From Clostridium brassicae (lineage in GTDB: Bacteria > Bacillota > Clostridia > Clostridiales > Clostridiaceae), in NCBI RefSeq assembly GCF_026738875.1, contig NZ_JAPQFJ010000003.1, forward strand, positions 124,001-188,000: a stretch of 64,000 bases of DNA. The letters are read 5' to 3'. The position numbers and the translations under genes were made by a program. Position 1 is the first letter of the stretch. Every line of letters begins with the position of its first letter. Shown in pieces: positions 54,040 to 57,968 of the stretch. The notes below the pieces were generated by a model. The model was not told the DNA's origin and did no database searches. It saw only the letters and a program-made list of their open reading frames with translations.

Positions 54040-54507
54040 GTGAACGGTAAAACTTCAAAATTAAAGAGTTGCTTCATAAATTGGGAAGAGTATTTCAGAT
54101 TAAAATCTTTAGGCTATTTAGACAAACAAATAGCTAGGTTTAATAATATTAGTCCTTCTACTCTATGTAGTATAAAAAAGAAAAATGGTATTAATACAAG
54201 TAATAAAAAGATAAAACCTACAGTGGATTGGCATTTATATAAAAAATTAAGAATGAAAGGTAAAACAGATAGAGAAATTTCAAAAATATTTAATATGCAT
54301 CCAAGCAACTTTTGTATTTTAAAAAAAGAAAATGGAATAGATGTTGAAAGGAATATAGGTATAACATGGAAAGAATACAAGGAATTAAAAAATAAAAACA
54401 TTCCAGATGAAAACATATCAGCACAATACAATATAAGTATATACTACTTAAATAAATTAAAGAGAGAGAATGGAGAAGATATTAAAAAGCAATCTAATAT
54501 AAGTTAA
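54040..54507 (+). CDS. Triple helix-turn-helix repeat protein
   Basis: The 155-residue protein, from GTG behind AAGGAGG, contains three similar units of about 48 residues. Each has an aromatic start (WEEYFRLKSLGYLDKQIA, WHLYKKLRMKGKTDREIS, WKEYKELKNKNIPDENIS) and ends in a KKENGI-type segment. The pattern matches a resolvase-like HTH repeated three times. It probably binds a long DNA target; the partner is unknown. Confidence 0.7.
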   Translation: MNGKTSKLKSCFINWEEYFRLKSLGYLDKQIARFNNISPSTLCSIKKKNGINTSNKKIKPTVDWHLYKKLRMKGKTDREISKIFNMHPSNFCILKKENGIDVERNIGITWKEYKELKNKNIPDENISAQYNISIYYLNKLKRENGEDIKKQSNIS

Positions 54508-56417: not shown

Positions 56418-57968
56418 ATGGAAGTTAAAATATTAACATATACACAAGAACCAGTAGAAACTATATATAGGGCATATAAACAATGTTATGCGCCTGGAAC
56501 TGCTACGGAAATTAAAATACCTTCATATGAAGAAATGGCAGAATTTATTGAAAAATGGGGAGAAAAAGGGCATTTATCGCCTTGGGAACATGTTAGTTTT
56601 ACATTTAGTGTAGAAGGAGTTAGCAGAGCATTAACACATCAACTTGTAAGACATAGAATCGCTTCATATAATCAGCAAAGTCAAAGATATCAATCGTGTT
56701 TTGGTAAATCATTAATGCCTATGCCACTACCAGAGGGTAAAAAAAGAAATGGACATTGCAAATTTACAATAAGCCAAGAAAAGTTTATAGCTAAACAATA
56801 TGAAAAGGGGTTAAGTTCAAGTAAAATAGCTGATTTATATAAAATGAACAGAGGAACTGTGCTTGATATAGTTAAAATTTATTCAAAAACAAGAACACAA
56901 AAAGAAAGTAAATTCATCAAAGAAAATTTTTTTGAAAAAATTGATAGCCATTTAAAAGCAAAAACACTTGGATTTGTATATAGTGATGGAAACATTAGTG
57001 TTAAGAAAAATGGTGATTTAATATTATCAATTGAACAGTTAGAAGATGAATATATGATGTTATATAATATTGTAAATACAATTAAAGAAGATGGAAAAGT
57101 GATCAAAAGTGGTCATGAGAATACAATAAGAATTTCAATACAAAACAATAAAATTTGTAATGATTTAATTAAATATGGAATTGTACCACGAAAAGCAAAA
57201 ATCATAAATATGGATAAGGTTTTAAAAAATATAGATAATCAATTTTTAAAATCTTTCATATTAGGAGTTTTTGAGGGAGATGGTCATTTAAGCACCAGTA
57301 AAAATGGAACAAACCTAAATATAACAGGTACTTATGAAACTTGCAAAACTATTCAAGATATCATTTGTGACGAATTATCAGTAAAAAGAAATAAAATTTC
57401 AAAATCAACTAAAGGTGAAAAAACATATATACTTAGTTTTACAACAAAAGAACAAGTTATAGCTATACTCAAATGGATATATAGCGAAGCAAAAGCTGAA
57501 TATTGTCATGTTAAAAAACTAAAAAAAGTTTTAGAATTAGTTCCGGAGCTGAAAGAAAAATTTGATAAACAATTTATTAAATATATTGAAAAGGAATTTA
57601 ATTGCAATACCCCACAATCAATAGTTGATAATAAATTAGCGCTAGGTGTATATGTAAGAAGTTTATCAAATATAAAAGAAACATATTCAAAGTTACAATT
57701 TTTATTAGCAAAATCGGGACATTGGGGGCAAAGAGCAAATGAAGATGCTAGAAGTATAATACCAAATGCTTTTTTATCTAATATAGTTGTTACTATGAAT
57801 TTAAGAGCGTTTAGACACTTCTACGAAGAAAGAAGTTGTTTTCACGCACAGGCAGAAATAAGGGAACTAGCAAACAGAATGATGGATTTAGTTAAAGAAA
57901 TAGTACCTTTTGCAGATTACAAAGCTAAGAAGTGCGGAATAATTTGCTCTGAGTGTACTAGTAAATGA
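56418..57968 (+). CDS. thyX: Flavin-dependent thymidylate synthase with in-frame LAGLIDADG insertion
   Basis: Residues 1-91 are the first half of ThyX, ending in [14 protein letters not shown] (the dUMP/FAD motif). From about residue 390 the second half resumes ([15 protein letters not shown], then [18 protein letters not shown]). Without the insert ThyX would be about 218 residues, a normal length. The insert of about 298 residues carries an HTH (123-150) and two LAGLIDADG motifs (183-191 GFVYSDG, 281-289 VFEGDG). No intein N- or C-terminal splicing block is visible, and there is no room for an intron core. Confidence 0.9.

Follow-up and report, generated by a model that had tools for sequence, protein, structure and literature searches.

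A homing endonuclease is usually held to need a splicing partner if it is to live in an important gene. LAGLIDADG inteins, ThyX inteins among them, place an endonuclease in frame within a conserved motif of an enzyme. For mycobacteriophages, two ThyX inteins have been tabulated (PMC5050341). Endonucleases with a helix-turn-helix (HTH) and LAGLIDADG motifs that are encoded in group I or group II introns, such as I-MsaII of Staphylococcus phage MSA6, are separate open reading frames (ORFs). The ShiLan domain is an insertion in a phage gene that leaves the host frame without a stop, shows no detectable intein or intron and has a patchy distribution that was read as homing (Arsenault, Gosselin and Gogarten 2025, PMC11855218). 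Here we describe an in-frame insert in the thyX gene of a 64,000-nucleotide stretch of Clostridium brassicae DNA; this whole stretch is called the window below.

The ThyX insert resembles the inteins in its position but lacks a Hint splicing domain and splice-junction residues, and it is homologous to the intron-encoded endonucleases but no intron core was found. With the ShiLan domain the insert shares an open host frame, a patchy distribution and the absence of any splicing element that could be found (PMC11855218). The ShiLan endonuclease, however, is of the HNH type and is encoded, out of frame, within a DNA methylase gene, whereas the ThyX insert is a LAGLIDADG endonuclease in the host frame and in the same polypeptide rather than hidden in another frame. 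The hosts also differ: ShiLan occupies a phage gene, and the ThyX insert occurs in archaea and viral contigs besides the prophage-like region of the window. No published account of this ThyX element was found in the open PubMed Central literature.

We consider it likely that a mobile LAGLIDADG endonuclease persists here within a functional ThyX as one of its domains, without being spliced out, where the activity and folding of ThyX as well as DNA cleavage are what we infer. The support is drawn from sequence comparison and consists of a single frame, the same insertion site, one clade of endonucleases, a patchy distribution, signatures of transfer and of a carried-over flank, and a frame that is kept without the catalytic Asp.

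Layout of the interrupted gene

The ORF at 56418-57968 (+) is a single open frame of 516 codons, in which ThyX residues 1-91 are followed by about 298 inserted residues and then by ThyX again. Pfam Thy1 covers it in two stretches (E 3.2e-52). The N-terminal part (56418..56690, +; residues 1-91) matches Thy1 and ends in the ThyX motif (SxRY); the score of a 52-sequence ThyX profile reaches a plateau at residues 91-93 and gains nothing beyond them. The insertion site is thus directly after the last Tyr of the motif. The insert itself (56691..57587, +; residues 92 to ~390) was delimited by the profile borders, the spacing in homologues and an alignment of four inserted ThyX, and its 3' border is accurate to about ±8 residues. 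On this side the profile picks up between residues 383 and 399: starting the fragment after residue 382 costs little score and starting it after residue 398 costs more. The C-terminal part (57588..57968, +; residues 391-516 and the stop codon) is given by the second Thy1 stretch and the profile.

These borders bear out the original prediction, made from the letters alone, that ThyX runs up to SQRY and resumes near residue 390. The spacing of 9-11 residues that it expected for ThyX was also observed: between SxRY and PxxI there are 10 residues in 43 of 49 parsed homologues, and the search pattern itself produced three of the six exceptions. Among ThyX proteins the stretch after the motif is mostly 10 and up to 21 residues long. 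Residues 92-106 were also considered as a part of ThyX. A 4-row profile matched up to residue 111 (24 of 1000 shuffles were as good), but the 52-row profile did not (445 of 1000), and this assignment was dropped.

The inserted endonuclease

The insert aligns over its length with HTH and LAGLIDADG endonucleases, and the PHROGs family phrog_4645 ('endonuclease') spans residues 104-359 with an E-value of 2.1e-34. The Pfam matches to HTH_23 (0.037) and LAGLIDADG_3 (0.042) are weak and below the cut-off, therefore the assignment rests on PHROGs, the homologues and the fold search. The HTH part (56769..56888, +; residues ~118-157) comprises the weak HTH_23 match at 124-157 and the model helices 118-129, 134-140 and 145-155. 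The first LAGLIDADG motif (56967..56999, +) contains Asp190 and the second (57255..57293, +) Asp288, and both Asp columns are invariant in 17 aligned endonucleases. The two motifs are 98 residues apart within the insert of about 298 residues and both retain their Asp, just as had been predicted. Related endonucleases encoded as separate ORFs are mostly 270-330 residues long, and the tblastn relatives include, from Staphylococcus phage MSA6, the endonuclease annotated in its rec intron.

An AlphaFold2 model of the window protein (37 sequences) reached a predicted local distance difference test (pLDDT) of 81.3 and a predicted template modelling score (pTM) of 0.63, with pLDDT <50 at residues 83-98, 159-165 and 504-516. 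Mixed alignments misplaced the endonuclease or the ThyX rows, and the alignment for structure prediction was chosen after trials with subsets. The search of the PDB was made with an earlier model (pLDDT 76.2, pTM 0.54), later superseded by the 81.3 model, and among the best 50 matches it returned LAGLIDADG structures, e.g. 4unb (I-DmoI) with a TM-score by target of 0.65. With two motifs, their catalytic Asp and a LAGLIDADG fold in the model, the insert is, judged by its sequence, a complete and bare HTH and LAGLIDADG homing endonuclease that would be expected to cleave DNA. It is plausible that ThyX adopts its fold with the insert in place.

Occurrence at the same site

We surveyed 159 loci of related endonucleases, 80 of them viral (the best of at least 431 relatives) and 79 genomic (the best of 165). 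Two carried an in-frame insert in thyX: L243, a metagenome-assembled genome (MAG) labelled Thermococcus, and L211, a 340-kb viral contig. A search from L211 added L323, a viral contig of 169 kb. The insert follows SxRY in all four genes, and because it is found at the identical site in other genomes the insertion goes beyond chance. L211 and L323 share 64% identity in the insert and 43% and 50% in the ThyX parts. The four endonuclease domains form one clade. A fast tree with 73 rows supports it with an SH-aLRT (approximate likelihood ratio test) of 81. A more thorough tree with 69 rows, built after dropping four long-branched rows, gives 99/98; its bootstrap had not fully settled. When viral contigs were searched with the window insert, with the thyX parts of the window gene and with L243, no relative bearing an insert came up (L020 and L051 are uninterrupted), and a search with both viral inserts returned only themselves.

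Judged by eye, L241 resembles an ordinary intein. The remaining ORFs that extend far to either side of the endonuclease (L189 and L277, with L166 and L319 added under a second criterion) resemble, again by eye, endonucleases that have extra domains of their own. In L250 (2845-4884) and L193 (2875-4992) the endonuclease ORF continues in frame into a long C-terminal part that by eye resembles a DNA methyltransferase. L323 (3007-4770) has a further extra segment within its C-terminal ThyX part. L324 (1492-3222; a 462-kb uncultured phage) and L325 (1399-2880; a Methanomassiliicoccales virus) encode ThyX inteins according to Pfam; these two and the intein of L345 (below) lie at different sites of the gene.

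For the archaea we took the 94 genomes of the family of L243 as Thermococcaceae; 92 of them gave a match at E<=0.001. Among the matches listed, seven of the 94 genomes (L243 and six more) carry an open-frame ThyX insert. One further genome, G987 (locus L340), also carries the insert, in a frame that shifts between one LAGLIDADG repeat and the other. We also read 24 other thyX loci, chosen for two matches side by side or, in one case (L345), for a long frame, and all 24 were empty at the insertion site. In L345, visual inspection points to an ordinary intein at another position of thyX. ThyA was found in none of nine genomes checked, whose completeness is not stated (G980 is a 1.5-Mb MAG). The eight insert-bearing genomes showed no second ThyX, their only matches being the two halves of the interrupted gene; the frameshifted copy is accordingly the only ThyX found in G987.

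Signs of transfer

We compared synonymous divergence (dS) between archaeal pairs. For L333/L334 it is 0.19 in the insert, 1.44 in the N-terminal part of thyX and 0.73 in the C-terminal part; for the other pairs dS is mostly near saturation. The sequence flanking the insert gave a second signal. The 36 residues between insert and EDAR have a mean identity of 78% when the seven inserted alleles are compared with each other, of 63% among 21 empty alleles and of 41% when inserted alleles are compared with empty ones; L345 and two empty loci that resisted parsing are not included. The outer ThyX parts, by contrast, show mean identities of 85-87% in each of the three comparisons. A bounded tract of this kind would be expected if repair copied a short flank along with the insert. 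Together with the patchy distribution, the signatures of transfer and of the flank suggest that the insert spreads.

The original prediction had further proposed a mobile element class. The shared site, the single clade, the low-dS insert of L333/L334, the bounded flank tract and the frame kept after loss of the Asp (below) agree with it.

Fate of the insert in the protein

The prediction had offered two options, an endonuclease domain tolerated in the protein or a new splicing element, and had seen no intein and too little non-coding room for a group I intron core. The absence of a visible intein was confirmed: the Pfam Intein_splicing domain gave no match at E<=1 in the window, L243, L211 or L323, while the same search detected the control inteins (the ribonucleotide reductase (RNR) intein L130 at 1.5e-16, the ThyX inteins L324 at 7.9e-15 and L325 at 1.1e-13). 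The statement on introns holds less firmly. Rfam showed no group I or II match in the four genes, but it also missed the annotated Staphylococcus rec intron (L118), even at E<=1, and its silence in the window is therefore weak evidence. Among 20 related endonuclease loci, nine had a group I or group II intron match. In genomes of the window's family, L024, L028, L030 and L036 have related LAGLIDADG endonucleases in loci with group II intron matches.

The best match to the S-type motif of group I introns has four mismatches in the insert and two in the downstream thyX part, compared to one or two in eight relatives; a scan for the R-type motif was uninformative. RNA folding of four border stretches revealed nothing beyond shuffles.

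Evidence that the insert remains in the protein comes from the archaea. In two of the seven open inserts (L338 and L339) the Asp of both LAGLIDADG motifs is lost and the frames are still open; the L339 insert is in frame despite the eight gaps that it shows when the proteins are aligned. When the L334 insert was randomly substituted up to the observed difference, the frame stayed open in 1 of 2000 simulations for L338 and in 0 of 2000 for L339; at half of the difference 24 and 3 of 2000 stayed open and at a quarter 177 and 47, although this null is crude, as L334 is not the true ancestor. As an RNA-spliced intron would need no open frame after the loss of the Asp, retention in the protein is favoured.

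We propose that the endonuclease came into thyX in frame, immediately behind the last Tyr codon of the motif, and that the insert would be translated as part of ThyX and remain in the polypeptide. The endonuclease domain would recognise the conserved DNA encoding the motif in an uninterrupted thyX and cut it, and repair from the inserted copy would transfer the insert along with a little of the thyX sequence downstream. Since the region behind the motif is of variable length, ThyX could presumably fold with an extra domain and splicing would be unnecessary.

Several points weigh against an unspliced domain of a working and mobile gene. The host has an intact thyX elsewhere, so that activity of the interrupted copy is not enforced. 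The frameshift in G987, if real, means that this genome can do without an unbroken fusion; the break could reflect an error, a loss that happened recently or a two-chain enzyme. The window and L243 are 45%, 32% and 37% identical in N-terminal part, insert and C-terminal part, the insert being more diverged than thyX, and in L334/L337 the N-terminal part is 97% identical and the insert only 72%, as if acquired separately. With most pairs near saturation of dS and some inserts more diverged than thyX, the claim of transfer leans mainly on the pair L333/L334. The shared downstream tract could stem from co-adaptation instead of co-conversion, and the junction in the model of the window protein (residues 83-98) has low confidence, which leaves its structure unsure. 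That either Hint-free protein splicing takes place or the ThyX of G987 consists of two chains, split between the LAGLIDADG repeats and joined by the endonuclease halves, we regard as unlikely.

The insertion in the window might have merely killed a dispensable prophage thyX, with the endonuclease made from an internal start. The thyX of the host and the presence of Met101 and Met103 just ahead of the HTH fit this account. However, the ThyX motif and the C-terminal region are conserved, the gene has neither a stop nor a frameshift, and the archaea with the same insert yielded no other thymidylate synthase, so a dead gene also seems an improbable explanation.

We give somewhat less credence to an unknown, Hint-free protein splicing that removes the insert after translation. 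As with inteins, the insertion is in frame beside an active-site motif, the frame is preserved even with a dead endonuclease, and inteins occur at neighbouring ThyX sites (L324, L325 and, by eye, L345). The failure of Intein_splicing to match speaks against it, as does the nature of the ends: the first residue is Q (window and seven archaeal inserts) or V (L211 and L323), and there is no common Cys, Ser or Thr after the C border nor an Asn at it, this border being uncertain by a few residues. The shortest inserts, L211 and L323, have 283-284 residues, about the size of the separate endonuclease ORFs, and therefore leave no room for a Hint domain. Of the two options offered earlier, the tolerated endonuclease domain thus stands, whereas a new splicing element is not needed.

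It is very improbable that the insert is a self-splicing intron, or an archaeal (bulge-helix-bulge) one, that went unrecognised and has an ORF reading through it: this account profits from the weakness of the Rfam search, but it faces the lack of a group I or II match, scant non-coding room, dead endonucleases that stay in frame and a junction pairing that, in a crude cofolding test of seven archaeal genes and the window gene, was no better than in shuffles.

If the endonuclease is indeed an unspliced domain of ThyX, it appears to persist without a splicing partner at one ThyX site in a prophage-like region, in viral contigs and in archaea, and in the archaea it appears to be part of the only thymidylate synthase found. 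This would make the origin of inteins testable, with the endonuclease first and splicing later or never, and would provide a natural case of domain insertion beside an active-site motif.

Genomic setting

The interrupted thyX sits in a phage-like region of the window, together with genes for a DnaB-type helicase (52707), an NTP pyrophosphohydrolase (54714), a RusA-like resolvase (56085) and a large terminase (61295). The second, intact thyX of the assembly is on another contig. All seven further genomes of the genus have an uninterrupted thyX and none of the seven gave a match to the insert. From a ThyX survey of 391 genomes of the class (among the matches listed) we re-inspected 16. Most of their long ORFs contain two Thy1 matches, i.e. 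tandem ThyX, and those of G289 and G316 have one Thy1 match each. ORFs of 453-483 residues with two tandem ThyX matches were seen in L084, L085, L088 and L089. Upstream of the nucleotide metabolism genes, the window encodes at 54040-54507 a small protein that by eye seems to consist of repeated HTH-like units.
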